Of a DNA stretch of 64,000 nt, positions 23,434-54,547 are shown in pieces; within the stretch, counting starts at the first letter, position 1, and each line of letters begins with the position of its first letter. This DNA comes from Daejeonella sp. (lineage in GTDB: Bacteria; Bacteroidota; Bacteroidia; Sphingobacteriales; Sphingobacteriaceae). The DNA is taken from positions 1-64,000 of the forward strand of contig NZ_JAUXXZ010000050.1 of NCBI RefSeq assembly GCF_030684675.1. Reading direction: 5' to 3'. Position numbers and translations under genes: made by a program. The notes below the pieces were generated by a model that was not told where the DNA came from, made no database searches, and saw only the letters and a list, made by a program, of their open reading frames with translations.

Positions 23434-25401
23434 TTAAAGATCAGATATAGATTTGTCAGGTATCTCAACCGGGCTATCAAGCTCTTCGTAAATAGAATTA
23501 TTACTTTTAAATTCAGGTACAATTTCCTTCATCTTCACTACTACCTGCCTGTCCTTATATTCACAGCTCAATTTGATCAGCTCAGAAATGTGTTTACTGA
23601 TTGTTTGAAAATGATACTCCCTTACCTGTGCAACCATGATCTTTTCATGATGGGTAGGCATGGTATTCTCCAGATCATTTAATAATTCTTCGTAAAGTTT
23701 TTCACCGGGACGAAGGCCCGAAAATTCAATCGCAATATCCTGATGAGGCACAAGGCCTGAAAGTCGAATCATCTTCTTCGCTAATTCGATAATCTTAACC
23801 GATTTACCCATATCGAAGATAAAGATCTCACCACCTTCACCCATTGACCCCGCTTCCAATACCAGACGGCATGCTTCAGGTATGGTCATAAAATACCGGG
23901 TAATATCCGGGTGTGTCACCGTAATTGGTCCCCCTTTTTGGATCTGTGCCTTAAAACGCGGGATTACAGATCCATTTGATCCGAGAACATTCCCGAAACG
24001 GGTAGTAATGAAGAGTGTGTTTACATTTGAACGATCCTCATTCAGATGACTCAGTCCGTTAGTATAAATAGTTGGCTCCTTATACTTGAAGGAATTAAAT
24101 AAGGATTGTACATAGATCTCAGCGATTCGTTTAGACGCTCCCATTACATTTGTAGGGTTAACCGCCTTATCTGTGGAAATCATTACAAATTTATGAACTC
24201 CATATTTTAAAGAAAGATCAGCCAAGGTTTTAGTCCCCATCACATTCGTTCTAACAGCTTCGCCTGGATTATGTTCCATCATTGGAACATGTTTATACGC
24301 AGCCGCATGGTAGACATAATGGGGCTTAAAAGTCTGGAACAGTAGCTCCATGCGGAAACGATCCCTCACATCCCCGATGAAACAATGAAAATTGTTCTGT
24401 AGATTATTTTCCTGTAACTCGAGATGCAGCTCATGGAGGGGGGTTTCACTCTGATCATTTAGTATGATCATCTGAGGTCCAAACTGAGAAATTTGACGGA
24501 CGATCTCTGAACCGATAGAACCTGCAGCGCCTGTTACCAATACCCTCTTCCCTCTCAGTTGTTCAGAAATGATCTCATTATGGATTTCTATAGGTTCCCG
24601 TTCTAAAAGATCCTCAATTTTAATATTTTGCAATTGCTTGCTCGACAACTGTCCGTTAATCCAGGAACGTACAGGCGGCAAAGTCAATACCTTAATATCA
24701 TTCTCGAGGCAAAGATCCACAATCCTATTCTTTCTATCTGGAAGGATGTTTTGAGAGGCTATAATCAGATCATCAATCTTATCCTGTTTGATCAAATTCA
24801 AAAACTCCCTTGTATGATAGATTTTTATACCGTCTATAGCTTTGCCTGTTTTACGCTCATCATCATCAATAAAGGCTGTTAAAAGCATATTCACCTTATT
24901 ATCATGATCCAATGTCCGCTTAGCAGCAATTCCCGCTTCCCCTGCCCCATAAATAATAACCCTGCGTTTATCCATCCTGAAATTCTTTACATACATAAAG
25001 AAGTATTTCACCATCACCCGGTAAGTAATCAACAGTAAAAACCCGGTCAAGCCATTAATCACCAGGATCACATTGGAGATATAAGGTGCATTATGAAAGC
25101 TGACCAAGACTAAATTAACAAGAACAAATAAGCCATTGCTGATCAGGACAGAAAATAATATACGGAACGAGTCTTGTGCGCTAGTATAGCGAATAATACC
25201 TGCATAGGTCTTGATAATCAGGAAAACAAAACTATTTAATATGCTGAATACCAGTATATTACGACTAAGTTCATTGGCATTAATTTCCTCTATATTGAAA
25301 TTATATTTCAGGAAATAGGCAAAGCAAAGTGAAAATGCGCAAACAAAGAGATCCAAAGAAAAAATGATCCAGCGCGGTACTATATTGATATGGTTAAACA
25401 A
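23434..25401 (-). CDS. Membrane-bound nucleotide-sugar 4,6-dehydratase (WbpM/FlaA1/CapD family)
   Basis: Four N-terminal membrane helices (about residues 10-130) are followed by a first nucleotide-binding motif YGAGEAG and a second, catalytic SDR domain with GAAGSIGSEIVRQ. The active site reads STDKAVNPTNVMGASKR, with Met in place of the SDR Tyr, as in WbpM and PglF. These enzymes turn UDP-GlcNAc into UDP-4-keto-6-deoxy-GlcNAc, the precursor of QuiNAc, FucNAc and bacillosamine. The length of 655 residues is typical. The start codon appears to be TTG at 25401; no ATG is in reach. It could feed the WbpV- and WbpL-like enzymes encoded at 27.8-29.8 kb. Confidence 0.9.
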   Translation of the reverse strand: MFNHINIVPRWIIFSLDLFVCAFSLCFAYFLKYNFNIEEINANELSRNILVFSILNSFVFLIIKTYAGIIRYTSAQDSFRILFSVLISNGLFVLVNLVLVSFHNAPYISNVILVINGLTGFLLLITYRVMVKYFFMYVKNFRMDKRRVIIYGAGEAGIAAKRTLDHDNKVNMLLTAFIDDDERKTGKAIDGIKIYHTREFLNLIKQDKIDDLIIASQNILPDRKNRIVDLCLENDIKVLTLPPVRSWINGQLSSKQLQNIKIEDLLEREPIEIHNEIISEQLRGKRVLVTGAAGSIGSEIVRQISQFGPQMIILNDQSETPLHELHLELQENNLQNNFHCFIGDVRDRFRMELLFQTFKPHYVYHAAAYKHVPMMEHNPGEAVRTNVMGTKTLADLSLKYGVHKFVMISTDKAVNPTNVMGASKRIAEIYVQSLFNSFKYKEPTIYTNGLSHLNEDRSNVNTLFITTRFGNVLGSNGSVIPRFKAQIQKGGPITVTHPDITRYFMTIPEACRLVLEAGSMGEGGEIFIFDMGKSVKIIELAKKMIRLSGLVPHQDIAIEFSGLRPGEKLYEELLNDLENTMPTHHEKIMVAQVREYHFQTISKHISELIKLSCEYKDRQVVVKMKEIVPEFKSNNSIYEELDSPVEIPDKSISDL

Positions 25402-35096: not shown

Positions 35097-36263
35097 CTAT
35101 AGCAAACTAATTGCTGTCGAGATTGATGCTGTAATCTTTTCCAGATCTTTCTCAGACCAATTAACCATTACCGGCAAGGATACTGAACGTGAAAGAAGAG
35201 AGTCAGAAACGGACCATTGGTTTTCATAGTTTTTATAATAACTGGTGTTATTCCATACCTGACTAAAATATTTAGCAAAATGCCACCTCATTGCGTCTGG
35301 AACATTTTTCGTACCTAAACCTTGGGCAGCCAAATTACCAATCAGCTTTTCAGCCAATTTCGGTGACTCAAGATTGAAAATAATTGTATCTGCCAGCTCA
35401 TTTTCATCGGTAATTCTTCGGAATTTAATTTTATCTGTAAAATTGCTTAGCTCGTTTTTTATTATCTTCTTATGATTTCTATTGCTTTCAACAATGTGGG
35501 TAAGTCGTTCGACTTGAATTAAGCCGACAGCAGCCTGTAATTCACTCATACGATAATTGAATCCATAAAAAGACGCTGTGTCTTTCCCTCTCGGCAGAGT
35601 CATATCACAATCATGACCGTGGTCAATGAATTTCATACAGGTAGTTATTAAGTTCTCATTGTTAGATATGATCATTCCACCTTCACCTGTTGTAATTGTT
35701 TTTCCAAAGTCCAAGCTAAATATACCTATATCAGACAATAACCCGGTTGAAACCCCTTTGTAAGTTGCCCCCAAGGCTTCACATGCATCCTCAAGTACCG
35801 GAATGTTATGTTTTTTAGCAATTGCATTAATAGCATCCATTTCTGCCGGATTACCAAGCATATGAACAGGTACTATCAACTTAGTTTTGTCCGTAATAGC
35901 TTCTTCTAAACTTCGTGGAGACATATTATATGTTTCATCAATATCGACCAGTACAGGCTTGGCTCCACATGCAAGAATGGCTTCGACAGTAGCGATAAAT
36001 GTAAAAGCCTGGGTAATAACCTCGTCACCAGCTTTAATACCCAAACATTTCATTGCAATATATTGAGCTGAAGTACCGGAGGTACATGCTGCGGCCTTTC
36101 TGCCACCAAGAGCTTTCGCAAATTTTATTTCAAAATCTCTTACACGGAATATATTGTTTCTGCGGACATCAAAGCCGTGAGCAAATAATACACCGTTACT
36201 TTTGTCGAATACTTCCAAAACTGAATTACGTTCCAGTTGGTCAATTAATTCAAAACCTGGCAT
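35097..36263 (-). CDS. kdnA: PLP aminotransferase, KdnA-like (8-amino-3,8-dideoxy-Kdo family)
   Basis: A DegT/DnrJ/EryC1 aminotransferase of 388 residues. It starts MPGFELIDQLE and continues GVLFAHGFDVRRNNIFRVRDFE, which follows my memory of Shewanella KdnA closely, as do AFTFIATVEAI, VHMLGNPAEMDAI and EDACEALGATYKG. The PLP lysine is in SLDFGKTITTGEGG. KdnA aminates the C8 aldehyde that KdnB makes from Kdo. The next gene upstream encodes an iron-alcohol-dehydrogenase relative, the expected partner. Here the pair sits beside a nonulosonate pathway, so the substrate could be Kdo, a nonulosonate or another ulosonate. Family assignment is firm; substrate is inferred. Confidence 0.75.
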   Translation of the reverse strand: MPGFELIDQLERNSVLEVFDKSNGVLFAHGFDVRRNNIFRVRDFEIKFAKALGGRKAAACTSGTSAQYIAMKCLGIKAGDEVITQAFTFIATVEAILACGAKPVLVDIDETYNMSPRSLEEAITDKTKLIVPVHMLGNPAEMDAINAIAKKHNIPVLEDACEALGATYKGVSTGLLSDIGIFSLDFGKTITTGEGGMIISNNENLITTCMKFIDHGHDCDMTLPRGKDTASFYGFNYRMSELQAAVGLIQVERLTHIVESNRNHKKIIKNELSNFTDKIKFRRITDENELADTIIFNLESPKLAEKLIGNLAAQGLGTKNVPDAMRWHFAKYFSQVWNNTSYYKNYENQWSVSDSLLSRSVSLPVMVNWSEKDLEKITASISTAISLL

Positions 36264-36286
36264 TTTTTTTCTTTTTAGTGTGAATA

Positions 36287-37444
36287 TTAAAAAATCTTAT
36301 TTAAAATAGTTTTACCGTCCAATGGAGTAAAGTTAACTGGATTCTGATCAAATGCACCCTGTAAAAGATCAATATATTCTGACAAAGCCGAATTATTTGT
36401 TTTTATGTCGTACTTTTTCGCAAAAGCCCAAACGTCTAACCTATCAAACAAATCGAATAAATAGGCAACTAGTTTCTCACACTTTTCCCGATCATTTTCA
36501 CCTTGGATAGCCAGTTCATCAGCAATTTCAAAATAACCATAATAGCCATTCTTTACATTGAATTCGAGCAAATAAGGCAGTATAAACCCTCCAGCAATCC
36601 CATGTGGCACTTTGCAAACTACCCCTAATGGATAGGATAAAGCACCGGCTGGTCCAGAGCCGGCATTATAGAGTGAAATTCCAGCTAGATAAGCTCCAAA
36701 CTGCATTTTCTCTCGAGCCTGATCGTTTTCAACATCTTTAAGAGCATGTTCAATATTATTTATTAAATATACTATTCCCTGTTTTGCAAATAGCCTGGTG
36801 TAATAATTGCTTTTTTTGCAGGCAAAGCTTTCAAAACCATGAACCAAGGCGTCCAGTCCAGAAGAAAGGGCAATTGCATATGGACAGTTTCTGGTCATAT
36901 TACTATCCAGAATAGCAAGAACTGGAAAGTTGTTATGAGTGTTAATACCCAATTTTCTGCCCAATTTTGAATCTGTAAATACTGCATTAAATGTTACTTC
37001 AGAAGCAGTTCCTGCCGTTGTTGGTACAGCAACTATCGGGATTGATGGATTTAAGTCTTTTGGGAAACCCTTGTATGTAGTTGCCGCACCATGATTATCA
37101 ATTAGTGTAGCTATCCCTTTTGCAAAGTCAATCACACTACCCCCACCAACTGCAACAATCACATCTACCAAAGACCTATTTGTATTCCGATCTTTAAACA
37201 GGTATTTAACATTATCTAAAGATTCATAATCGGGTTCAAAAGGAAGATCGTAATAATAGGTGACAGCATGCAATCCTTTCTCGTGTAACTCAGTAATCAA
37301 CTTTCCAACATCTTCATTTAATCTAAATGCCTGGTCAACAATAAAGCCGTATTTCTTATATCCATTCTCAGATAAAAAATCAGGAATATTCTGCAATCCA
37401 CCCTTACCAATAATTGTTCTAGTTTTAATTATTACATCAATCAT
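36287..37444 (-). CDS. Iron-containing alcohol dehydrogenase family protein, KdnB-like
   Basis: A 385-residue member of the Fe-ADH superfamily with the NAD motif VAVGGGSVIDFAKG and the PTTAGTASEVT loop. Metal ligands Asp and His are seen in SGLDALVHGFES and another His in VPHGIAGG. The third usual His, expected ten plus four residues before that PHG His, is Gly (segment AGALSYPLG), so the metal site may be incomplete. In Kdo8N synthesis KdnB oxidises the C8 hydroxyl for KdnA; its place just upstream of the KdnA-like gene (23 bases) supports that model. The ATG at 37444 is used; a TTG lies two codons upstream. It directly follows the nucleotidyltransferase gene. Confidence 0.72.
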   Translation of the reverse strand: MIDVIIKTRTIIGKGGLQNIPDFLSENGYKKYGFIVDQAFRLNEDVGKLITELHEKGLHAVTYYYDLPFEPDYESLDNVKYLFKDRNTNRSLVDVIVAVGGGSVIDFAKGIATLIDNHGAATTYKGFPKDLNPSIPIVAVPTTAGTASEVTFNAVFTDSKLGRKLGINTHNNFPVLAILDSNMTRNCPYAIALSSGLDALVHGFESFACKKSNYYTRLFAKQGIVYLINNIEHALKDVENDQAREKMQFGAYLAGISLYNAGSGPAGALSYPLGVVCKVPHGIAGGFILPYLLEFNVKNGYYGYFEIADELAIQGENDREKCEKLVAYLFDLFDRLDVWAFAKKYDIKTNNSALSEYIDLLQGAFDQNPVNFTPLDGKTILNKIF

Positions 37445-37446
37445 GT

Positions 37447-38490
37447 TCAAAATTTAATATGTTCATATTCTATCTGTGCTTTTTTAAACTCTTCATGACT
37501 ACCAATATCTAGCCAATAACCCAACAATGGGTAAGTAATCACTTTTGCACCTTCCTTAATCAGTTTCTCCATAAGGTCTGTAGCATTATACATAGTATTT
37601 TGAGGAATGCTTTTCAACAATTCCTTTTTTATAAGGTAAATGCCCCCATTTGAATAATATGTAAACGTGGGTTTTTCTTTAAAACTTATAACGCTATTTT
37701 CATTTGTCTCTAGGACTGCATATGGAACATTTACATTGTATGGAATTGAAACCACAGAAAAATCGGCATCTTGCTTGATAAAATCTAAGAAAAAATCTTC
37801 ATAATCGATATTAGTGAGCAAGTCAGAATTAGTTATCAAAATATTACTATGATTGAATTTTTCAATTTGGGAAACGGCACCGATCGTTCCAAGTGGCATG
37901 TTCTCATATAAATATTTTATACTTATGTTAAGTTCTGAACCATCTTTGAAATAATCTTCAATTTGTTCACCCAAGTAATTCACTGAAATGAACAATGTTT
38001 TAATACCATAAAGCGATAATCGTCCAATATTATGTTCTATGATTGGTTTATCACCAACCATAAGAAGCGGTTTAGGGGTATTTTCAGTAAGGGGCCTCAA
38101 TCTCATCCCTTTACCTCCTGCCATAATAACTGCATCTAAGGGTAGGTATGATCGATTTCTACCAAAATTAACAATATCAACAATGCGTCCGAACTCGTCT
38201 AATACCGGTACAATTTTCAACATGTCATTACGGTAACCAATTACTTTTTGGATGTCGTTATCTCCCTTTTTCAGATATTTTGGCTGCTTTTGGCTGATTG
38301 AATCTATTTCCTCATCTATGGATGATCCCTTAATTAATCCTCTTCTGATATCGCCGTCAGTAAGGGAAGCAATCAATTTATTATCTTTATCAACTACGAA
38401 AAGAATTGCATCCTTTCCAAGATTATCTAAAAGAAATAATGCGGATTTTATAGAACTTCCTGATAGAATTAAATGTTTTTTATACTGCAT
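37447..38490 (-). CDS. CBS-domain nucleotidyltransferase (PtmE-like)
   Basis: Residues 1-115 form a pair of CBS domains (LFVVDKDNKLIASLTDGDIRRG, then a second copy ending VDIVNFGRN). From about residue 118 a sugar-nucleotidyltransferase domain follows with VIMAGGKGMRLRPLTENTPKPLL. This architecture is that of PtmE, the glucosamine-1-phosphate guanylyltransferase that starts legionaminic acid synthesis with GDP-linked intermediates in Campylobacter. Its position between the Kdn-like pair and the NeuC-like gene supports a GDP-sugar route. The nucleotide specificity is inferred from family and context. CBS domains imply control by adenine nucleotides. Confidence 0.83.
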   Translation of the reverse strand: MQYKKHLILSGSSIKSALFLLDNLGKDAILFVVDKDNKLIASLTDGDIRRGLIKGSSIDEEIDSISQKQPKYLKKGDNDIQKVIGYRNDMLKIVPVLDEFGRIVDIVNFGRNRSYLPLDAVIMAGGKGMRLRPLTENTPKPLLMVGDKPIIEHNIGRLSLYGIKTLFISVNYLGEQIEDYFKDGSELNISIKYLYENMPLGTIGAVSQIEKFNHSNILITNSDLLTNIDYEDFFLDFIKQDADFSVVSIPYNVNVPYAVLETNENSVISFKEKPTFTYYSNGGIYLIKKELLKSIPQNTMYNATDLMEKLIKEGAKVITYPLLGYWLDIGSHEEFKKAQIEYEHIKF

Positions 38491-38533
38491 TAGCTATTAT
38501 ATGAAAAATTAATTGGTAAAGGAGTTATCAAAG

Positions 38534-39712
38534 TTATCTTAATCCTTTACACTTAAAATTAATGTCCCTGAAAGACTTTATCAAAATTGAATTCAAATTA
38601 ACAGTCTTTAACACGGAAATAATTTTACCAGATGAGTTATACTTACCATATGGGTTCCTACTGTTTTTGATTTTTTCCCTGAAAGAATCAGAGTATGCAA
38701 CATTAATTGCTTCAATAATGGATGAAGTATTTGGGGTACAATCGATGACGCTGTCTGCACGAATTCTACCCTTCTGCCTATCCCCAATATTTACTGTGGG
38801 TATATTAAAGGATGGAACCTCAATTAAACCGCTAGATGAATTACCAATCACCATGTCAACATATTTCAATGATGACAAATATCTTATTTGCCCAAGTGAA
38901 ACGAATGATACACAACGTTTTTGATTTTGTGATACATATTTATCGATAAGGTTGGCGATTATTCTACCATCTGTATCAGCGTTTGGTTTTGTAAAGATAA
39001 TTCCAATATCTTGGAAATGATCCATTGCACTTAACAAACTGACAAATTGCTCTTCTGAAGTGGCATTCTCAAGGGTAACAGGATGAAAAGTTACCATAAC
39101 AACCTTTTCGGGCAATGAAAAACCAATGGATTCTTCAAATTGGTATCGGGTGAGTAATTCTAACCTATTTATGTTTTCAATACCTAGGGCACCAACATTA
39201 TACACATAATCAGGAGTTTCACCTAATTGCATGACACGTTTAGCGTATTCTACAGTTGATGTAAAATGAAGATGTGACATCTTAGTAATACTATGCCTTA
39301 TAGCTTCGTCAATTACCCCCTCCGTTACCTCACCTCCATGGCAATGAGCAATTGGAATTTTAGCCACCATTGCTGCGATTGCGACAGAAAATATTTCAAA
39401 TCGATCACCTAAAATAAACAAAATATCAGGCTTCAAACGATCAAGTGCTTCAGACATACTAATTACTCCCAATCCTATACTTTTTGAAATCCCTATTGAA
39501 GTATCAGATGACAAAAGCATTTCTACTTTTTCATCAATAAGAAAACCAGCGGCTTCAATTTCTTTGTAAGTAAGACCGAAATCAGGTGACAAATGCATCC
39601 CTGTCACGCAAATCTGCAGTTTGATATCTGGATCTTCTTGTAAGCCCCTCATAACCCAATACATCAGACCAAATTCAGCTCTCGAACCAGTTACAACGCA
39701 AATTTTCCTCAT
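38534..39712 (-). CDS. neuC: Hydrolysing nucleotide-HexNAc 2-epimerase (NeuC/LegG)
   Basis: A 392-residue enzyme that releases the nucleotide and epimerises C2 to give free ManNAc or its 2,4-diacetamido analogue. The N-terminal VVTGSRAEFGLMYWVMRGL, HCHGGEVTEGVIDEAIRHSITK and the conserved C-terminal NSSSGLIEVPSF are diagnostic. The ATG overlaps the preceding NeuB gene by four bases, the standard order for nonulosonate operons. In the legionaminate route the substrate is GDP-2,4-diacetamido-bacillosamine; in the sialic route UDP-GlcNAc. The presence of LegC- and PtmE-like genes favours the first. Confidence 0.92.
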   Translation of the reverse strand: MRKICVVTGSRAEFGLMYWVMRGLQEDPDIKLQICVTGMHLSPDFGLTYKEIEAAGFLIDEKVEMLLSSDTSIGISKSIGLGVISMSEALDRLKPDILFILGDRFEIFSVAIAAMVAKIPIAHCHGGEVTEGVIDEAIRHSITKMSHLHFTSTVEYAKRVMQLGETPDYVYNVGALGIENINRLELLTRYQFEESIGFSLPEKVVMVTFHPVTLENATSEEQFVSLLSAMDHFQDIGIIFTKPNADTDGRIIANLIDKYVSQNQKRCVSFVSLGQIRYLSSLKYVDMVIGNSSSGLIEVPSFNIPTVNIGDRQKGRIRADSVIDCTPNTSSIIEAINVAYSDSFREKIKNSRNPYGKYNSSGKIISVLKTVNLNSILIKSFRDINFKCKGLR

Positions 39713-40734
39713 TCCAATTGATTAAATTGAACAAAATCATTTTTTAGGACATCAACTGTAAGGATCCTACCAACAATATTGTCAGATTCCATCGGACTCA
39801 AACCAGTTCCAGGTCTAAGAGAAATTAAGTCATCCTGCCCAACTATATGACCAGCTTTTAATGAATGTTTGAAAAACAAACTTTTTCTGGCAATAGCTAT
39901 ATTTTTAGCCTCCGAAACACTTAATTCCTTATTTCCTGAGCCACTAATAGCTGCTTCAATATTCCTAATAGCCGTAACCATTTTCTTAAGTTCGGAAGGG
40001 TCTAGAGAAGCTAAATGATCTGGCCCTGCCATGCTTTTGTCTAAAGTAAAGTGCTTTTCAATAATCGATGCTCCTAAAGCCACCGCAGCAATAGGAACTT
40101 CAATACCAAGGGTGTGATCGGAATAGCCTACCTCAAAACCAAGCTGGGCCTTTATCGAATTCATTGCCAGCAGGTTTACTTCTAACATTGGTGTTGGATA
40201 TTCAGTTGTGCAATGAAGTATCGTAATTGAATCTCGGTCTGCTCCTTCTTTTATTAGTACTTCGATCGCCTGTTTAATTTCACTTAAATCAGACATTCCC
40301 GTTGATAGAATTATCGGCTTTTTCTTTTGGGCAATCTTTTTAAGATAAGGTTTATTCGTAATTTCCCCAGAGGGAATTTTAAGAATAGTAATTCCAAGTT
40401 GATCAAGAAAGTCAATACTATCATTGTCAAATGCAGTTGACAGAAACTGGATCCCTTTACTCTTGGCATATTCTATTAGAAACTGATGCCAATCATCAGG
40501 CATTTCTAACTTCTTAAGCATGTTATATTGGGAATTATCTCCATCCTTAGTATTACGAACCTGATATTCAGCCTTCTGCGCGTTTTGAGTTACAATTTTA
40601 TCTGCCTTAAATGTTTGAAATTTTACGAAATCAACTCCTGCAGCTGCAGCTGCGTCTATCAGTTTCTTCGCAATAGTTAAATCTCCATTGTGATTTACAC
40701 CTGCTTCAGCGATAATAATTACCTTTTTATTCAT
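39709..40734 (-). CDS. neuB: Nonulosonic acid synthase (NeuB/LegI)
   Basis: A 341-residue PEP-condensing enzyme. The TIM barrel (about residues 1-270) carries IIAEAGVNHNGD, STAFDNDSIDFL, KIPSGEI, the signature HCTTEYPTP and VGYSDHTLG, and a C-terminal SAF (antifreeze-like) domain spans about 285-340. It joins a six-carbon 2-acetamido sugar with PEP to form a nine-carbon ulosonic acid. The start and stop overlap both neighbours by four bases (ATGA), indicating translational coupling through NeuD-NeuB-NeuC. Whether it makes Neu5Ac, legionaminic acid or an isomer cannot be read directly; the neighbours favour a legionaminate-type product. Confidence 0.94.
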   Translation of the reverse strand: MNKKVIIIAEAGVNHNGDLTIAKKLIDAAAAAGVDFVKFQTFKADKIVTQNAQKAEYQVRNTKDGDNSQYNMLKKLEMPDDWHQFLIEYAKSKGIQFLSTAFDNDSIDFLDQLGITILKIPSGEITNKPYLKKIAQKKKPIILSTGMSDLSEIKQAIEVLIKEGADRDSITILHCTTEYPTPMLEVNLLAMNSIKAQLGFEVGYSDHTLGIEVPIAAVALGASIIEKHFTLDKSMAGPDHLASLDPSELKKMVTAIRNIEAAISGSGNKELSVSEAKNIAIARKSLFFKHSLKAGHIVGQDDLISLRPGTGLSPMESDNIVGRILTVDVLKNDFVQFNQLE

Positions 40735-41372
40735 TTTATAGTTTTTGCTGGATTTCCTACAACTATAGCATTGTCTGGTATATTATTTAAGACTACTGCA
40801 CCTGCACCAACTACCACATTAGCCCCGATAGATATCCCTTGTTTTATTACTGCATTTGCCCCGATAAAAGACATATTTCCAACATTAACATTTCCTGCTA
40901 GAACAGCTCCTGGCCCAATGTGTACTGATGTTCCAATGTGACATTCGTGCTCTATTATAGAACCGGTATTTATGATAGCATAATCATTTATGATAGATAA
41001 TGGGTTAATAGTGGCGTTACCCGAAATAAATACACCATTACCAACCGAAACTTTATATGCAATGTTAGCAGATGGATGAATGATTGAAGTCAATTGTTCC
41101 CCAATTGACAAAAGTCGCTGAGCAATATTCATTCTGACAACATTATCACCGATTCCTATCATAAAGAGATATTTTTTTCCATATCCCGGGAAGTTGCTAT
41201 TCCCATCGAAGCCTAAGTATTCCAATTGGAAAGGATTATTATTTTTACGTGTAGTTTCTGAATAATATTTCAAGTTGATACCAGATTTAATAGCCGCATC
41301 AGCAAGCACGAAAGCATGACCTGAATATCCTATTATTACTGCTATTTTTCTATCTGGCACTACTAGGGACAT
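40731..41372 (-). CDS. NeuD/PglD-like sugar acetyltransferase (LegH candidate)
   Basis: A 213-residue protein with the PglD-type architecture: an N-terminal Rossmann-like domain (IAVIIGYSGHAFVLADAA) and a C-terminal left-handed beta-helix from about residue 95, with the catalytic His in IIEHECHIG and an end IPDNAIVVGNPAK. In the legionaminate pathway the homologue acetylates the 4-amino group of the sugar made by LegC. It overlaps the LegC-like gene by 23 bases and the NeuB gene by four. An O-acetylating NeuD role is the alternative. Confidence 0.87.
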   Translation of the reverse strand: MSLVVPDRKIAVIIGYSGHAFVLADAAIKSGINLKYYSETTRKNNNPFQLEYLGFDGNSNFPGYGKKYLFMIGIGDNVVRMNIAQRLLSIGEQLTSIIHPSANIAYKVSVGNGVFISGNATINPLSIINDYAIINTGSIIEHECHIGTSVHIGPGAVLAGNVNVGNMSFIGANAVIKQGISIGANVVVGAGAVVLNNIPDNAIVVGNPAKTIK

Positions 41373-42498
41373 TTACAATTCTATCTTCTAAGAAAGTTGC
41401 ATTTTTTTGATCATCTTTCTGACAAGAAGAATACATTGTCGACCTTGTTAGTAATTGCCATATTGGTCTTGTCATAACACCCGCGCTATTACTAGATGAT
41501 AAAAAGAGGTCACGTTCTTTACGGGTTTCCAATTCGATGCACATTAGCCAATAATTTGCGGTGGTTCCTGGAAGCTCTGTTCTAAAGTGAATACCGCTTT
41601 TACTGAAATACTGATGATATTCAGAGGCTAACTCTCGTTTCGATTTTAGAAATGTGTCCAACTGTTCCAATTGTGCACACAATAGTGCTGCATTGAGATT
41701 TGGCAGTCTATAATTAAATCCTATCTCATCATGAACATATTCATATAGATGAGGAATTTTTGCGGTCGTTGTTATATGTTTGGCTCTTGCAGCCATTACA
41801 TGATTGTTTGTTACAATTACTCCGCCGCCACCACTAGTGACAACTTTATTACCGTTGAAAGAAAATACGCCTAAAGTGCCAAAGCTACCTGTTGGTTTGG
41901 TTCCATATGTGCTACCTAAAGACTCTGCAGAATCTTCAACAATAGGTAAATTCCACTTTGTACAAACCAAAATAAGTTTATCTAAATGAACAGGAAATCC
42001 AAAAGTATGCATAGGCAGGCACGCTGCTATCCTTCTGTTTGTTCTCCTGTTATAAACACCATTCTCACGGATTTCTCCAAATTCTTCAAGAAAATTACTT
42101 ACAGCGTCTGGAGACAAACCCATTGTATCGACATCTACGTCTAAAAAAACAGGTACTGCTCCATTATGTTTGATGGCATTAGCAGTAGCAATAAATGTTA
42201 AGGCCTGAGTAATAACTTCCTCGCCTTCAGATACTCCCACCATTTTGAGTGCTATTTGAATCCCAGCTGTACCGTTTACAGTAGCAACCGCCTTTTCGGT
42301 TTGAGCGATTTGACTTAGCATCATTTCAACCTTATCAACATAAGCCCCTACTGATGATACAAATGTGGAATCGATAGCGTCGTTGAGATATTTCTTCTCG
42401 TTCCCTCTAAACCTAGGCTCATGTAATGGTATGAATGACTCTGGCTGCCCAAAAGCTTCTCGAATTTTATTTATTGTTTCCTGAAAACTTTCCGTCAT
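41350..42498 (-). CDS. LegC-like PLP aminotransferase
   Basis: A DegT-family enzyme of 382 residues belonging to the LegC group by its long N-terminal segment, PLHEPRFRGNEKKYLNDAID, AVATVNGTAGIQIALKM and the PLP-lysine segment SFNGNKVVTSGGGG. LegC aminates C4 of the 4-keto-6-deoxy-HexNAc nucleotide. It is followed, with overlap, by NeuD-, NeuB- and NeuC-like genes, so the order matches legionaminate clusters. The gene in the usual LegB place just upstream is an SDR of a different subgroup; see the gene at 57636 for a better LegB candidate. Confidence 0.88.
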   Translation of the reverse strand: MTESFQETINKIREAFGQPESFIPLHEPRFRGNEKKYLNDAIDSTFVSSVGAYVDKVEMMLSQIAQTEKAVATVNGTAGIQIALKMVGVSEGEEVITQALTFIATANAIKHNGAVPVFLDVDVDTMGLSPDAVSNFLEEFGEIRENGVYNRRTNRRIAACLPMHTFGFPVHLDKLILVCTKWNLPIVEDSAESLGSTYGTKPTGSFGTLGVFSFNGNKVVTSGGGGVIVTNNHVMAARAKHITTTAKIPHLYEYVHDEIGFNYRLPNLNAALLCAQLEQLDTFLKSKRELASEYHQYFSKSGIHFRTELPGTTANYWLMCIELETRKERDLFLSSSNSAGVMTRPIWQLLTRSTMYSSCQKDDQKNATFLEDRIVNVPSSAR

Positions 42499-42504
42499 AG
42501 TAAA

Positions 42505-43488
42505 TTAATTGACATTCCTGTATTTAGGATCATCAGGATTTATAATAAAACCCTCATTAACTGCTTTTACAATTTGATCCACACCGTCTGGAACTCTTTT
42601 GGTGATCTTGAACCCGAGTTGTGACTTAATTTTTTCAAAACTTACCCTGTAATCTCTTGGATCTTCATTTTTGGTTACATACTTGACCGACGCACCGGGA
42701 ATACGCTTCAAAATCACATCGATTATCATCTGTTTCTGATAGTTCTCTTCAGTATCCCCTACGTTAAATACATCAAAAGCTGTCTTACTAGAATCAGCCT
42801 CAAAGACACTAATTACAGACCTTGCTAAATCGACGACGTGGCAATAAGGGCGCCAAAATTGCTCACCAAATATAGTAAGCTCTTTCCCCAGTGCCAGATC
42901 TTTTGAAAATTCATTAACAGTCAGATCAAATCTAGGTCGCAACGACAGACCGTAAACAGTTGAAAAACGAAGGCAAGTTGGTGCGCAACTATTACTTTTA
43001 GGCTGTCCTAAAAGGTATTTTTCGATATGAACCTTAGTTTCTGCATATAGTGATACTGGTGCAAGTTCTGATTCTTCATTCACAAAAGAATCCGGGTCTT
43101 TCATTTTACCATAGTTGCTGCATGTAGAGGCAAAAACGAATTTCTTAACTCCGGCAAGTTCTGCCTGAGTATACAAGTTTACCGACCCATCGATATTGAT
43201 AGATTTCGTAAGATCCGGATCTACAGCACATGCAGGATCACCAACGATCGAAGCAAGATGGGCAAGAAAGGTAACTCCCTCTAAGGCTCGTGATACGATA
43301 GAGGCATCCCGTATATCGCCTTTAATAAATTCAAAATCATTTCTGTTTAGAAGATCAAGAATAGGTTCACCACCGAATGATAGATTATCTAATACTTTGA
43401 CATAATAACCTTTATCCAATAATAACCGGACTAATACCGAACCAATATAACCAGCACCGCCGGTAACTAATACTTTTGTTTTATTCAT
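42505..43488 (-). CDS. SDR-family NAD-dependent epimerase/dehydratase of unassigned specificity
   Basis: A 327-residue extended SDR: KVLVTGGAGYIGSVLV, HLASIVGDPACAVDP, FASTCSNYGKM and YAETK give a complete cofactor site and Tyr-x3-Lys. The distinctive FGEQFWRPYCHV and EDPRDYRVSFEKIKS mark a widespread but uncharacterised SDR group often seen next to sugar methyltransferases. It occupies the place where LegB would be expected (six bases before the LegC-like gene), yet lacks the LegB-type STSEVYGTA. The ATG at 43488 is used; the frame extends 33 codons upstream into the methyltransferase gene. Confidence 0.8.
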   Translation of the reverse strand: MNKTKVLVTGGAGYIGSVLVRLLLDKGYYVKVLDNLSFGGEPILDLLNRNDFEFIKGDIRDASIVSRALEGVTFLAHLASIVGDPACAVDPDLTKSINIDGSVNLYTQAELAGVKKFVFASTCSNYGKMKDPDSFVNEESELAPVSLYAETKVHIEKYLLGQPKSNSCAPTCLRFSTVYGLSLRPRFDLTVNEFSKDLALGKELTIFGEQFWRPYCHVVDLARSVISVFEADSSKTAFDVFNVGDTEENYQKQMIIDVILKRIPGASVKYVTKNEDPRDYRVSFEKIKSQLGFKITKRVPDGVDQIVKAVNEGFIINPDDPKYRNVN

Positions 43489-43492
43489 AAAG

Positions 43493-44359
43493 CTATGGGA
43501 TATAATTAGTGACATTAATATTTCCTCTCGTACAAAGCGCAAGAGAGGTGTAATGTGAATTTTGTTTTGTAGGCCAAGGAAGGGCACCTAATGGTCTTAT
43601 TTCGATATTACATCCCTCACCGATTAGTCGCTCAGTGGCAAGATAAGGCCCCGGTATAATCGAATTGTTAACCCAAATAGGTTTGTTATTAGGGAAATAG
43701 TCATGTAAAAGGATGATTCCATTTCTGTTAAGGAGCCTACATGCCAAAGGTAATTCCCTATAAACAAGTTCAGCTGAATGCCCTCCATCGAGAAATATTA
43801 AATCATATTTATCCTGACATTGAGCAAGGTACTCTACAGAAGGTTGACACCGAAAAGTCACTTTATCACTATAGTTAACTTTTGTAACTAAATCAAGGGG
43901 TGACATAGGTGCTTTATATGCAATCCATGGTTTTTCAGCGCTATTTACATCTCTAATATCGACAGTTACAATACCTGATACCCCATTAACTAATTTTAAT
44001 TCACGTTGTGCAACAGATAGGTGAACAGTTGAGCAACCTATATGAGTACCAATTTCAAGTATTTTGGATGGTTTGAAATGCCAAATCAAATAAGCTATTG
44101 CTCTTTGATCTCCTGTATTAACCCCCCCCGTATTATCAGGAAGATCTAATCCTTGCAATTCCTTGCTAACTGAATCCCATAGGCTTTTATACTTTTCGGA
44201 ATTAAAAATCAATTCAAACTCATCATCCGAATCTAACTTTTTAAGGTTCTCGACAGAGACGTTCGCCCGCTCAAGCTTTTTTAAATCTTTTCGATCTCTA
44301 AAGTTTCGGATAAAATTTTTTGCAGACTCTGGTATTAGATTAGAGAAACTAGTGTTCAT
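43493..44359 (-). CDS. Class I SAM-dependent methyltransferase
   Basis: A 288-residue protein with motif I ILEIGTHIGCSTVHL (about residues 100-114), an acidic end of strand 2 (VTVDIRD), and LIFLDGGHSAELVYREL followed by GIILLHDYFP, as in the Methyltransf_24 group. This group includes O-methyltransferases and some sugar-modifying enzymes. The first 70 residues are charged and lack homology I recognise. It lies four bases before the SDR gene and 41 after the AsnB-type gene. Substrate unknown; methylation of a sugar hydroxyl of the repeat unit is the likeliest role. Confidence 0.78.
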   Translation of the reverse strand: MNTSFSNLIPESAKNFIRNFRDRKDLKKLERANVSVENLKKLDSDDEFELIFNSEKYKSLWDSVSKELQGLDLPDNTGGVNTGDQRAIAYLIWHFKPSKILEIGTHIGCSTVHLSVAQRELKLVNGVSGIVTVDIRDVNSAEKPWIAYKAPMSPLDLVTKVNYSDKVTFRCQPSVEYLAQCQDKYDLIFLDGGHSAELVYRELPLACRLLNRNGIILLHDYFPNNKPIWVNNSIIPGPYLATERLIGEGCNIEIRPLGALPWPTKQNSHYTSLALCTRGNINVTNYIP

Positions 44360-47397: not shown

Positions 47398-48123
47398 TTA
47401 TGCAAAATGCACCGAGTCCCCCGAATTCTTTAAATATTTTGCTGCAACAAGGGGGCTATCTGTTATGCTTTTATGGAATGAACACATTCTCATACCTACG
47501 TGGCCCCTCATCATCGACTTACGGATATCAGTGAACTCAAATTGAACAATTTCTCTGGGCACCTGGCTATATACTCCTTTGTGCAATAAGTTGGTATCAA
47601 AAATTATTAGGTCATTTTTCTTTCCTATCACTTTAATTATTTTACCAACCGCTTTCACATCCTCTAAAGCCATTTTACTATCACGATAATTAGAATACTT
47701 AATACGATGAGATGATGGAACGATTTCGGTATGTGTGGTATCGTCCTGATCTGTTATACACATGAATATCTTTATGCGATGTCCGACAGAATCATGATGC
47801 CATTCATCAGATTTTGATCCAGAAGAAAGAAAACGCCTACCGGATGCGTAATCAAGTACAGCTTTTGGACCAAGATAATCACGAACTATGCTAATAACTT
47901 TTGGGTCAAATAAAGGCTTTGAAAGGAAAGGGAATTTAAGAAGTATATCTTTTGATTCCTCACTACCGATCAAGCTCCTTGACACTTCAGGAAATAGCGC
48001 CAAATCATATTCATTAAAATAATTAGAGATAACACAATAACCTTGCTCTCCTAATGGCCCCTTCATAGATGCTCTTAAGTCACCGTACTTTACTATAATT
48101 CTTTGATATAGTTCTCCTAACAT
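47398..48123 (-). CDS. Phytanoyl-CoA dioxygenase-like Fe(II)/2-oxoglutarate oxygenase
   Basis: A 241-residue PhyH-family protein. The double-stranded beta-helix has the iron-binding H109-x-D111 in DEWHHDSVGHR and the distal H181 in FDTNLLHKG, followed nine residues later by R190, the expected 2-oxoglutarate anchor. All catalytic residues are therefore present. PhyH proteins hydroxylate small molecules and are occasionally found in glycan loci, but no defined sugar hydroxylation role is known to me. Its place between the CMP-sugar transferase candidate and a membrane protein suggests it modifies the glycan, its precursor or its lipid. Confidence 0.78.
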   Translation of the reverse strand: MLGELYQRIIVKYGDLRASMKGPLGEQGYCVISNYFNEYDLALFPEVSRSLIGSEESKDILLKFPFLSKPLFDPKVISIVRDYLGPKAVLDYASGRRFLSSGSKSDEWHHDSVGHRIKIFMCITDQDDTTHTEIVPSSHRIKYSNYRDSKMALEDVKAVGKIIKVIGKKNDLIIFDTNLLHKGVYSQVPREIVQFEFTDIRKSMMRGHVGMRMCSFHKSITDSPLVAAKYLKNSGDSVHFA

Positions 48124-49340: not shown

Positions 49341-50045
49341 TTATTGCTCTCTGCTTTTCAAGATTGCTTCAGCAAGCAGAAGATCTTCAGGTTCATCAAT
49401 ATCGATTGCATTTTTGTCGTCTAAAATGAATGGTTTCGAAATAGACGGATGGATAAAGCAGCTATGCTCAAAAAGGAATTCCTTTTTGATTAGGTAGTAA
49501 GAGCCATCTATAAAAAAGAAATTTTCCTGATATGCTTGCCTTTGGTTGCCAGAAACTGGCTTTTGTAGATATTCCCAATTATCTTCATTCATTCGAATAC
49601 ATTCATTCGGATGTTGCCTTATCGGAATTACACTAAATGAAGAAGCCAATTCATCAATTCTAAATTGTTTAATCATACTCAGGATATGATTTAAAGATCG
49701 GATTGGCGAAGTCACTTGTAGAAGCAAGATTTCATCTGGATAAACTGATTTATTATCTTCTAGCCAATTTAAAGCATCCTTTAAACCATCTATGATTGTA
49801 GCCGTATCATCAGATAGGTAATCAGGGCGCTTGTAATCTGTTTGGAAACCTTGTTTACTACAGTAATCTAATATCTTTTCATCATCAGAAGATACGAAGA
49901 TCATCACTTCGTCTTCAAGTTCTTGTTCTAAGGCTTTCGCTATACTTAACGTATAATATAAAAGCGGCTTTCCATTCAAGTAGGAAAGATTTTTTAACGG
50001 AATTCCCTTAGAACCACCTCTCGCAGGAATATATATAAGAATCAT
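49341..50045 (-). CDS. CMP-nonulosonic acid synthetase (NeuA/LegF-like)
   Basis: A 234-residue cytidylyltransferase with IPARGGSKGIPLKNL at the N-terminus, LLLQVTSPIRS and DGSYYLIKKEFL, and the final Asp pair in AIDIDEPEDLLLAE. It activates a nine-carbon or Kdo-like acid with CTP. It overlaps the upstream methyltransferase gene by four bases and is one base from the transferase candidate. Kdo cytidylyltransferase (KdsB) is less likely from the motif spacing. It completes the nonulosonate pathway although it lies 7 kb from the NeuB group. Confidence 0.88.
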   Translation of the reverse strand: MILIYIPARGGSKGIPLKNLSYLNGKPLLYYTLSIAKALEQELEDEVMIFVSSDDEKILDYCSKQGFQTDYKRPDYLSDDTATIIDGLKDALNWLEDNKSVYPDEILLLQVTSPIRSLNHILSMIKQFRIDELASSFSVIPIRQHPNECIRMNEDNWEYLQKPVSGNQRQAYQENFFFIDGSYYLIKKEFLFEHSCFIHPSISKPFILDDKNAIDIDEPEDLLLAEAILKSREQ

Positions 50046-50656
50046 TTGCCGATTTTCTGAAATATATCTATCGCAATACGTTCATCTGACATGTAATAGT
50101 CTGATATATAGACTTTTTTGAAACCCGCACTTTCCATCTTTTCACGTAATGTTTCAATATTCAGAAATTGTTTAGTAAATGAATCGCCTTTTATGTTATA
50201 AGAGTACGCAAACAAGCCATTGGTTACAAGCATTGAGTTGATATGAGAAATTGTAATATCTATCTCAGGTGCACAATAATATAACGTTTTCAGGGCAGTC
50301 ACCAGATTTGCTTTAAGGTCCAGCGTAGATTCTATAATATTAAGTTGATGAAAGAATAAGTCAGGATAAGCTAATTTCGCTTTGAGAATTGCAGCTTCTG
50401 AAATGTCACACCCTATGTATTCCTCAGCTGCTAACTCTTGCTTAAATGCCTTACTGAGATGCCCTGGCCCGCACCCAATATCAACAATCCGACCACCCTG
50501 ATATAAATGCTTTAGTGCAGAAACTAACACTTTGAAGCTGGTATCTTCAAGGCCGCGCGCTTCTTGCCCCCAAGGATCCGCCACTTCCCTGTACATAGTT
50601 TCAAAGTCTCTAGTGAAGTCTTTATTATTCTTGATTATATAATCATTGCAATTCAT
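50042..50656 (-). CDS. Class I SAM-dependent methyltransferase
   Basis: A 204-residue protein with motif I RIVDIGCGPGHLSKAF (about residue 60), YIGCDISEAAI as the acidic strand 2 and a short C-terminal half. Such small proteins act on small molecules, sugars or nucleotides. I use the ATG at 50656; a TTG two codons upstream is the alternative. It overlaps the CMP-sugar synthetase gene by four bases, so it may methylate the nonulosonate or its glycan. Confidence 0.78.
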   Translation of the reverse strand: MNCNDYIIKNNKDFTRDFETMYREVADPWGQEARGLEDTSFKVLVSALKHLYQGGRIVDIGCGPGHLSKAFKQELAAEEYIGCDISEAAILKAKLAYPDLFFHQLNIIESTLDLKANLVTALKTLYYCAPEIDITISHINSMLVTNGLFAYSYNIKGDSFTKQFLNIETLREKMESAGFKKVYISDYYMSDERIAIDIFQKIGK

Positions 50657-50666
50657 ATACAATAGC

Positions 50667-53169: not shown

Positions 53170-53934
53170 TTATATTTTCAATGCCGCTTCTAACAAATTT
53201 CTATCAGGAAAATTCACCAATACGCCCATTCCCTTTTTCTGGTAAACTACCATGCTCCCCAACGCTACAGCCGATATATTTGTTTTAGATATTATTTCAT
53301 CGATATGATCTAATTTTCCTGCGCCTCCATTTGCAATTACCGGTATATTAACGGCGTCAGATATCTTCTTCAAAATATCGATATCATATCCGGTCCATGT
53401 ACCATCCCTATCCATTGACGTGACTAGCAATTCTCCGGCTCCGAAATCTTCCATCGTTTTCGCCAGGTCGACAGGATTATGGTTTTGCCTTTTAGTGCCA
53501 CAATGACTATAAACCTGATAATTCCCCCAAAGATTCCGTTTTATGTCTATTGATACGAGAACACTTTGATTACCCGAGTGATTTGCAATTTCGCTAACTA
53601 GAAAAGGATTTTCAATTGCCGCAGTGTTCAATATGATTTTTTCAAAACCTATAGAAAGGATTTTTTTGGCAGTCTCACTATCATCAACACCGCCACCATA
53701 TGATAATGGCATAAAGCATTCGTCGGCAATCTCTCTCAATATTTTAAAGTTGGGAGGGCGCTTTTCAAGTGTTGCCCTAATATCGAGAAAACACAGTTCA
53801 TCGACTTCCAATTCATTAAAAATCCTCACCGTATTGATTGGATCACCGATATACCCTGGGTCACCGAAACGGATAGTTTTAACTAAAGATTCTTCAACCA
53901 ATTGCAAACACGGAATAACACGAATTCTCAACAT
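53170..53934 (-). CDS. wbuZ: HisF-like amidation protein (WbuZ)
   Basis: A 254-residue TIM barrel homologous to the cyclase subunit of imidazole glycerol phosphate synthase. In histidine biosynthesis Asp11 and Asp130 catalyse; here residue 11 is Gln (VIPCLQL) while D130 is kept (VSIDIK). Loss of Asp11 is normal for the polysaccharide-associated WbuZ/HisF2 group, which serves to channel ammonia from the HisH partner to the WbpG-type enzyme. It overlaps wbuY by seven bases. The full triad wbuX-wbuY-wbuZ is present in order. Confidence 0.88.
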   Translation of the reverse strand: MLRIRVIPCLQLVEESLVKTIRFGDPGYIGDPINTVRIFNELEVDELCFLDIRATLEKRPPNFKILREIADECFMPLSYGGGVDDSETAKKILSIGFEKIILNTAAIENPFLVSEIANHSGNQSVLVSIDIKRNLWGNYQVYSHCGTKRQNHNPVDLAKTMEDFGAGELLVTSMDRDGTWTGYDIDILKKISDAVNIPVIANGGAGKLDHIDEIISKTNISAVALGSMVVYQKKGMGVLVNFPDRNLLEAALKI

Positions 53935-54545
53935 TTAATTTTTGCAAAGTTTTCAAACAATCTCATACCAAACTTGTGGCTCTTTTCCGGGTGGAACTGA
54001 GCGCCGTAAACATTGCCACTCGCCACCGCTGAGTCAAATTCTACACCATATTTGGTTCTCATAATTGAGTCCGAGGGATCTTTGGCACGAACAAAATATG
54101 AATGAACAAAATAATATCTTAGTTCCCCATTAAAATTTTCCGTAAGCCCATTTACCTTGGTAACTGTCGCGACGTTCCAACCCATATGTGGAACCTTGAG
54201 TTGGCTATCAATTCTCCCTTTAAAGTGATAAGCCATGCCCGGTATCCATCCCAAACCCGAAAGTTCACCCTCTTCGCTACCGTCCATCAATAACTGCATT
54301 CCCAAACAAATCCCTAAAATTGGAATTTTCTCAACTAACGCTTTATAGTCCAGAACTTCCTTAAGCCCGGAAGAATTGATACGCTGCATCGCAGAATCAA
54401 AAGACCCGACGCCCGGTAATAAGATTTTTGGCGAAGCCATAATAACGTCTGGATCAGACGTTATCTGCGCTAATACACCTACTTTTTTAAACATATTAGC
54501 AACCGAACCGAGATTGCCCATGCCGTAATCGACAATTGCGATCAT
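53928..54545 (-). CDS. wbuY: HisH-like glutamine amidotransferase (WbuY)
   Basis: A 205-residue class I glutaminase with the triad Cys80 (LGICLGMQL), His185 and Glu187 (QFHPEKSH), and the HisH-type oxyanion region PGVGSFDSAM. It releases ammonia from glutamine for the acceptor enzyme encoded by the adjacent genes. The context, with a WbpG-type gene two bases upstream and an Asp11-less HisF downstream, shows it belongs to glycan amidation, not histidine synthesis. Confidence 0.9.
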   Translation of the reverse strand: MIAIVDYGMGNLGSVANMFKKVGVLAQITSDPDVIMASPKILLPGVGSFDSAMQRINSSGLKEVLDYKALVEKIPILGICLGMQLLMDGSEEGELSGLGWIPGMAYHFKGRIDSQLKVPHMGWNVATVTKVNGLTENFNGELRYYFVHSYFVRAKDPSDSIMRTKYGVEFDSAVASGNVYGAQFHPEKSHKFGMRLFENFAKIKC

Positions 54546-54547
54546 AA

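Follow-up and report, generated by a model that had tools for sequence, protein, structure and literature searches.

A KdnA-related aminotransferase in a variant legionaminic-type gene cluster: a candidate pathway to a terminally aminated nonulosonate

The window analysed here comprises bases 1-64000 of contig C13 in the 4.25 Mb, 84-contig genome of a bacterium of a lake-and-sediment group. On its minus strand, from approximately 44.4 kb down to 35.1 kb, runs a series of genes for a methyltransferase, a short-chain dehydrogenase/reductase (SDR), LegC, NeuD, NeuB, NeuC, a PtmE-like protein, an iron-type alcohol dehydrogenase (Fe-ADH), and a KdnA-like aminotransferase; all are separated by short gaps or overlap, and from LegC to the KdnA-like gene neighbouring open reading frames (ORFs) on the ORF list overlap by 4-23 bp or lie 6-43 bp apart. 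We consider it moderately probable that this run encodes a variant legionaminic-type pathway with a terminally aminated product, in which the Fe-ADH/KdnA pair would act on C9 of the nonulosonate before activation with cytidine monophosphate (CMP). Amination of a nonulosonate as such is well supported by gene linkage and phylogeny. Our observations concern gene content, linkage, phylogeny, and the replacement of LegB; from the sequences we infer the C9 position and every reaction. An initial annotation of this DNA had placed PtmE-like, NeuC, and NeuB genes in one run with the Fe-ADH and KdnA-like genes, and all these ORFs were found in that arrangement; the LegC (41350), NeuD (40731), and SDR (42505) genes of the same run were absent from that annotation.

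The aminotransferase (35097..36263, minus strand) is, as judged from its sequence and a structural model, a true KdnA relative at the family level. Its best match among 56 Protein Data Bank (PDB) sequences was Shewanella KdnA (5k8b, 257 bits; next match 197 bits). Its AlphaFold model (predicted local distance difference test, pLDDT, 95.6) placed the same chain at Foldseek rank 1 (TM 0.94, rmsd 2.0, 36% identity), consistent with a fold type I enzyme of the DegT kind that uses pyridoxal phosphate (PLP), with K188 as the PLP lysine. This lysine was conserved in all 76 KdnA-like rows of our alignment. The motifs MPGFEL, GVLFAHGFD, and VHMLG, previously read as KdnA-specific, are present, and the likeness to KdnA is well above chance; they mark the wider KdnA-like family, including members without nearby genes for 3-deoxy-D-manno-octulosonic acid (Kdo), and are therefore no proof of Kdo use.

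Relatives were collected by scanning a named genome collection with two window-like KdnA peptide patterns, a search biased to close relatives that returned 69 loci. One (L068) was left out, being the contig of G010, a genome of the same genus whose KdnA gene is 97% identical to that of the window; 21 of the remaining 68 loci are shorter than 8 kb. The KdnA tree (79 rows: 76 KdnA-like and three outgroup) took the 57 loci with a full KdnA ORF, and cut or broken ORFs (L090, L093, L096, L103, L112, L123, L129, L132, L133, L134, and L136) were omitted from it and kept in the neighbour counts. A single label change suffices to separate the 31 NeuB-linked from the 10 KdsB-linked rows, as compared with 5 to 10 changes (mean 9.1) in 2000 label shuffles. 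All 10 KdsB-linked rows fall with Shewanella KdnA into a branch of 26 rows (ultrafast bootstrap, UFBoot, 82; SH-aLRT 99), and the window protein lies outside it, among the 50 rows on the NeuB side. The NeuB side also carries its own residues: K319, P322, A324, and D292 occur in 50/50 rows and T318 in 49, the same residue being found in at most three of the 26 Kdo-side rows, while N320 and D323 occur in 41 of the 50. Ten alignment columns occupied on the Kdo side are gaps in all 50 NeuB-side rows or in all but one of them. The resulting signature, T318-K319-N-x-P322-D-A324 or TKNxPDA, marks the NeuA/NeuB/NeuC-linked relatives, and the Kdo branch has a different segment there. The family, though related to the Kdo-aminating KdnA, is distinct from it and is distributed across numerous bacterial groups, with at least one archaeal member.

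In Kdo, the terminal carbon (C8) is oxidised by KdnB and then aminated by KdnA. With the Shewanella oneidensis pair (5k8b, 5k8c), which serves synthesis of 8-amino-Kdo (Kdo8N), the window system shares the KdnA fold and sequence family and, we infer, the order of alcohol oxidation followed by transamination; another shared feature is an aminotransferase gene that adjoins a CMP-sugar synthetase gene in many relatives. Unlike it, the window protein belongs to a separate, TKNxPDA-bearing branch, has NeuA, NeuB, and NeuC in the place of KdsB, and is some 10 residues shorter near the C-terminus. That the window pair nevertheless makes Kdo8N, its nonulosonate module being no more than a neighbour, was close to one of two alternatives in the initial annotation, export of an amino-Kdo into the same glycan. 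KdnA is indeed the nearest characterised aminotransferase and the genome has a kdsB gene, but we regard this explanation as very improbable. The window protein stands apart from the branch that unites every KdsB-linked row with Shewanella KdnA, it lacks the Kdo-branch segment, its dehydrogenase partner is not KdnB, and NeuA/NeuB neighbours recur in many phyla. The kdsB gene is on another contig (C29), the KdnA-like gene is not in an operon with KdsB and KdnB, and no second Fe-ADH copy was found in the window genome. At E ≤ 1e-60 a KdnA-like gene was present in only one of 19 other same-genus genomes (G010) and in 4/60 genomes overall, including the window's; such patchy presence is as expected of a variable surface-glycan gene rather than a core lipopolysaccharide gene. 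The second alternative, amination of a nonulosonate at C8 or C9, was supported by linkage and phylogeny and could be sharpened to C9.

The neighbourhoods of the 68 loci point in the same direction. Neighbour genes took the names of the window or locus proteins that they matched best by BLAST, and a subset was checked against family models. NeuB was found in 33 loci, together with NeuC in 26, and NeuA stood directly downstream of KdnA in 29; KdsB occupied that position in six, none of which had NeuB. Where an oxidising-type gene lay on the same strand no more than 800 bp away from KdnA, it was a Fe-ADH in 20 loci (seven of these belonging to a Kdo-side delta group of the trees), KdnB in 6, a PhyH-type gene in 7, and a GMC gene in 11. 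Among representatives, three of four PhyH-like and all three GMC proteins exceeded their Pfam cut-offs; the L116 protein gave no Pfam hit. That unrelated oxidising enzymes replace one another beside a constant aminotransferase fits alcohol oxidation followed by transamination. The loci come from Bacteroidota, Pseudomonadota (SAR11 and Rhodobacterales), Verrucomicrobiota, Omnitrophota, Campylobacterota, Cyanobacteriota, a Methanolobus archaeon, and others; after G010, the next named relative of the window KdnA is that of Sediminibacterium magnilacihabitans (Chitinophagaceae; 78%). The window gene set recurs elsewhere in other order and at low identity, for example in L034, the same locus as L070 (KdnA 62%, Fe-ADH 56%, NeuB 57%, and NeuC 37% identity to the window).

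Short cassettes bear on the position of amination. L071 and L072 hold KdnB-KdnA-NeuA-NeuB-NeuC and L081 holds FeADH-KdnA-NeuA-NeuB-NeuC, and neither a dehydratase nor a second aminotransferase was found inside these three runs. With no 4-aminotransferase in the run, their expected product is a neuraminic-type backbone that carries a C9 alcohol, and that of the window cluster is a 7-acetamido version. C9 would thus be available in the products of both, and would be a methyl group in LegB products, which favours C9 amination before CMP activation. The terminal carbon of Kdo, on which KdnB and KdnA act, corresponds to C9 of a nonulosonate and therefore also favours this position. The same cassettes speak to another explanation, that the substrate of the pair is a nucleotide sugar, or its target a different carbon such as C4 or C7. 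Most related DegT enzymes have nucleotide-linked keto sugars as substrates, going by the names in the PDB match list; against this, NeuC is the sole nucleotide-sugar step of the short cassettes, C7 is already served by LegC in the window, and KdnA homology together with NeuA adjacency, parallel to the KdsB adjacency of the Kdo group, argues for a free ulosonate. We hold this explanation to be improbable.

An alcohol at C9 would require that the usual dehydratase step be bypassed. The window contains the legionaminic genes PtmE (by domains only), LegC, NeuD/LegH, NeuC/LegG, and NeuB/LegI according to family models. Relative to the pathway PtmE-LegB-LegC-LegH-LegG-LegI-LegF it is the same cassette apart from one gene: an SDR occupies the LegB position (42505..43494, minus strand; with a GTG start the listed ORF reaches 43587), and the Fe-ADH and KdnA-like genes are extra. 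The best solved match of the SDR was 6vo6/6vo8 (173 bits; next match 111 bits), which we take to be Cj1427, and its catalytic stretch reads STCSNYG, without the glutamate of LegB's STSEVYG. Cj1427 of Campylobacter jejuni is a GDP-heptose C4-dehydrogenase that uses alpha-ketoglutarate and does not dehydrate its substrate (PMC10680097, PMC7949155). The SDR and this nearest solved relative both lack the dehydratase glutamate; unlike Cj1427, the SDR is expected to act before the aminotransferase on guanosine diphosphate (GDP)-linked N-acetylglucosamine (GlcNAc), not on a heptose. No LegB (TIGR04180, cut-off 475 bits) was found in the whole window genome, where the best match reached 190 bits.

Nine of the 68 KdnA loci contain LegC (L069, L070, L076, L080, L097, L100, L120, L129, and L131). 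The SDR was present in all nine, directly beside LegC in eight and within about 1 kb in L100; in L076 it was seen only after 3 kb more sequence. At E ≤ 1e-90, none of the nine genomes contained LegB. A comparison of L183 with L214 indicates a one-gene swap in an orthologous cassette: the two share LegC at 81% identity, NeuD at 86%, NeuB at 87%, NeuC at 85%, and PtmE at 86%, and the L183 cassette begins with the SDR, that of L214 with LegB. In a sample of 395 Bacteroidota genomes, searched for the SDR at E ≤ 1e-50 and for LegB-type proteins at E ≤ 1e-120, 18 had the SDR and 27 a LegB-type match (24 over the cut-off), with none shared, a non-overlap that by rough estimate is compatible with chance and that we do not use as evidence. 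The SDR stood beside LegC in seven of the 18 genomes (L181, L183, L184, L188, L189, G183, and the window), with KdnA in two of the seven. LegC was found in 13 of 19 LegB loci (20 regions), and KdnA in none of these 13 within the stretch read; a 169-bit match in L213 was judged by eye to be another DegT enzyme. The SDR also occurs without KdnA, and the dependence between the two is therefore one-way. KdnA at a locus thus goes with the variant that is expected, from its sequence, to retain the hydroxyl at C6 that becomes the C9 alcohol. Six further loci (L178, L179, L180, L182, L187, and L194) have the same SDR beside an aminotransferase, five of them with a PtmE-like gene and none with a NeuB match; they perhaps make GDP-4-amino sugars via C4 oxidation without dehydration.

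The fate of LegB also weighs on a third explanation, in which C8 of a nonulosonate would be the carbon oxidised and aminated by the pair. The nearest known sugar to our proposed product is the 8-amino, 9-deoxy nonulosonate of Flexibacter (Tenacibaculum) maritimus, an 8-amino-3,5,7,8,9-pentadeoxy sugar of a Bacteroidota O-polysaccharide (PMC3210612). The Fe-ADH/KdnA pair, being nonulosonate-linked, would suit such chemistry, and an extra side-chain amino group is common to this sugar and to the proposed window product; the F. maritimus sugar differs in its amine at C8 and, being 9-deoxy, needs a 6-deoxy precursor, for which LegB is missing from the window genome and the nine KdnA-LegC genomes. 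As a direct model it is disfavoured for that reason. KdnB, moreover, works on a terminal primary alcohol, and the 69 matches, from a scan that used window-like patterns only, included none from a locus named Tenacibaculum. Amination at C8 therefore seems unlikely.

The Fe-ADH (36287..37450, minus strand) belongs to the iron-type alcohol dehydrogenase family (PF00465, PF25137); its listed ORF starts at a TTG, with an ATG two codons further in. The earlier description of this protein as KdnB-like was not upheld. Shewanella KdnB (5k8c) scored 64 bits and ranked 32nd of 39 solved sequences, and the best matches, at about 130-135 bits, were methanol, 1,3-propanediol, and other alcohol dehydrogenases. 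The closest folds to its model (pLDDT 92.8) were methanol, lactaldehyde, ethanol, and 1,3-propanediol dehydrogenases. These enzymes act on primary alcohols, and we count the fold matches as suggestive of oxidation of a terminal primary alcohol. In a tree of 41 Fe-ADHs the window member fell into a group of 20 rows (SH-aLRT 97), in all of which the third metal histidine is replaced by G, A, S, or N; the window protein has G and keeps D200, H204, and H283, and the L087 protein lacks further metal ligands as well. All 21 rows outside this group keep D, H, H, H. True KdnB proteins, as controls, matched Shewanella KdnB at 476 bits in L038 (with KdsB) and 334 bits in L072, where KdnB stands beside NeuA, NeuB, and NeuC. 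Comparison with the Shewanella proteins thus gave KdnA as the top fold match for the aminotransferase and did not give KdnB as nearest to the Fe-ADH; likewise, phylogeny placed the former in the KdnA family, outside the Kdo-linked branch, and the latter in a non-KdnB group. A KdnB homologue (300 bits) also occurs at L204:5729-6841 (minus strand), in a nonulosonate region that adjoins a LegB cluster and in which no KdnA was called.

The proposed pathway begins with the PtmE-like protein (37447..38490, minus strand), in which the NTP_transferase domain was over and the CBS domain below its cut-off; its name follows by analogy the Campylobacter pathway tabulated in PMC3438082. As the putative GDP-GlcN(Ac)-forming enzyme it would supply GDP-GlcNAc. 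The SDR, as a proposed GDP-GlcNAc C4-dehydrogenase, would then oxidise C4 without dehydration, so that the C6 hydroxyl is not removed, and LegC, the C4 aminotransferase (41350..42498, minus strand; TIGR04181, 511 bits, cut-off 420), and NeuD, the sugar N-acetyltransferase (40731..41372, minus strand; TIGR03570, 191 bits, cut-off 161), would install an acetamido group there. NeuC/LegG, a hydrolysing 2-epimerase (38534..39712, minus strand; TIGR03568, 487 bits, cut-off 236), would release the 2-epimer, to which the NeuB/LegI synthase (39709..40734, minus strand; TIGR03569, 471 bits, cut-off 400) would add pyruvate, giving a 5,7-diacetamido-3,5,7-trideoxy nonulosonate with its C9 alcohol still there. 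The Fe-ADH, as the proposed C9 alcohol dehydrogenase, would convert C9 to an aldehyde; this oxidised terminal carbon would then be the target of amination by the KdnA-like enzyme. The product, a 5,7,9-triamino-3,5,7,9-tetradeoxy-nonulosonate, would be activated by a NeuA-type enzyme and enter a surface glycan. A candidate for the activating enzyme, a CMP-nonulosonate synthetase-like protein of NeuA/PseF type, is encoded in the same large cluster (49341..50045, minus strand; CTP_transf_3; 105 bits against a PseF cut-off of 206).

Several results weigh against C9 amination by this pair, or against the generality of the pattern. The branch separating the NeuB and Kdo sides has a UFBoot of only 82 despite its SH-aLRT of 99, and the root is unsure: with the distant outgroup, the 50 rows form one clade in a quick tree, and in a more careful tree the attachment point of the outgroup falls among them. 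No oxidising-type partner was found nearby in 24 of the 68 loci, and PhyH enzymes as a rule hydroxylate rather than dehydrogenate, which makes the partner argument weaker for PhyH-type neighbours. The loss of a canonical metal ligand suggests that the chemistry of the Fe-ADH may differ. In L072, another DegT-type gene lies two genes upstream of KdnB, and NeuB is just under its family cut-off (394.7 vs 399.65). Eight of the nine KdnA-LegC genomes are metagenome-assembled or single-cell genomes, for which the absence of LegB is weaker. The unselected comparison of KdnA beside SDR-LegC and LegB-LegC (2/7 vs 0/13) is not significant (Fisher p 0.11); adding the KdnA-selected loci gives p ~0.001, but these rows are not independent, being related to one another, and L070 and G183 represent a single locus. 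LegB is present in three of 35 genomes with NeuB- or NeuA-linked KdnA loci (L072, L073, and L135); for L135 it may lie about 30 kb from the KdnA locus on one contig, going by an inferred contig number. Of the 27 genomes with LegB in the Bacteroidota sample, nine have a KdnA-like match (E ≤ 1e-75) elsewhere in the genome, namely G372, whose KdnA is KdsB-linked, and eight of family f38, whose three rows in the KdnA tree fall on the window's side. These genomes speak against a strict rule: the exclusion between LegB and KdnA holds at the locus, not the genome, level, and our argument rests on the locus level. Two other window proteins, a 655-aa Polysacc_synt_2 protein (23434-25401) and an SDR whose site reads SSSEVYG (57636-58610), could, from their sequences, make 4-keto-6-deoxy sugars. 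Amination at C8, or at C4, would also be compatible with the sequences.

Other genes of the cluster and other loci complete the picture. A small S-adenosylmethionine-dependent methyltransferase (50042..50662, minus strand) has a weak relative (54 bits) between KdnA and Fe-ADH in L034. At 53170-55714 (minus strand) lie genes for an AglZ/HisF2-family acetamidino modification protein, HisH, and a WbuX N-acetyl sugar amidotransferase, each over its cut-off and together an acetamidino-forming trio within the same cluster. A 241-aa protein (47398-48123, minus strand) is similar to one encoded in the KdnA cluster L097 and looked PhyH-like by eye; this identity was rejected, as there was no Pfam hit and no convincing solved relative. 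The methanogenic archaeon Methanolobus psychrotolerans (L118) has FeADH-KdnA-NeuA-NeuB-NeuC in one run, with NeuB under and NeuC over the family cut-off. Rhodobacteraceae loci (L094, L103, L109, and others) have KdnA-NeuA-GMC, mostly without NeuB nearby and in some cases followed by a Kdo-transferase-like protein (PF04413, as tested for L094), and perhaps serve an aminated lipopolysaccharide core sugar. Family f38, perhaps Chlorobiaceae, has 72 genomes with a KdnA-like gene (loci include L041, L045, and L047); a Fe-ADH stands beside it in all 22 short loci read and a NeuA-like gene in all three long loci, and the six genomes tested have NeuB-family proteins of ~300-350 aa away from the KdnA-like gene. 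No relative was found in the viral contigs searched.

The gene combination, which the initial annotation knew from no described cluster, is not unique, the same gene set being present in other clusters; searches of open-access literature, with subscription papers mostly outside their scope, yielded no description of a KdnA-like gene in a nonulosonate cluster or of a 9-amino nonulosonate. A Leptospira aminotransferase (YP_002103), left unassigned in PMC3438082, may be of the same kind as the window protein. With somewhat less than even confidence, we suggest a widespread and so far undescribed route to terminally aminated, sialic-acid-like sugars, in which a sister family of KdnA aminates C9 of nonulosonates and is served by oxidising enzymes of three unrelated kinds (Fe-ADH, with KdnB among them; GMC; and PhyH), and in which exchange of LegB for a C4-dehydrogenase keeps the C9 alcohol in legionaminic-type clusters, leading to 5,7,9-triamino nonulosonates. 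If so, the chemistry of KdnB and KdnA, known for one eight-carbon sugar, would also apply to sugars of the sialic-acid class, and surface sugars with positive charges would be predicted in organisms as diverse as Chitinophagaceae, SAR11, Rhodobacterales, and a Methanolobus archaeon. TKNxPDA is suggested as a motif for finding such aminotransferases, and the contrast between STCSNYG in the SDR and STSEVYG in LegB as a sequence rule that may tell 9-hydroxy from 9-deoxy diamino nonulosonates in genomes.

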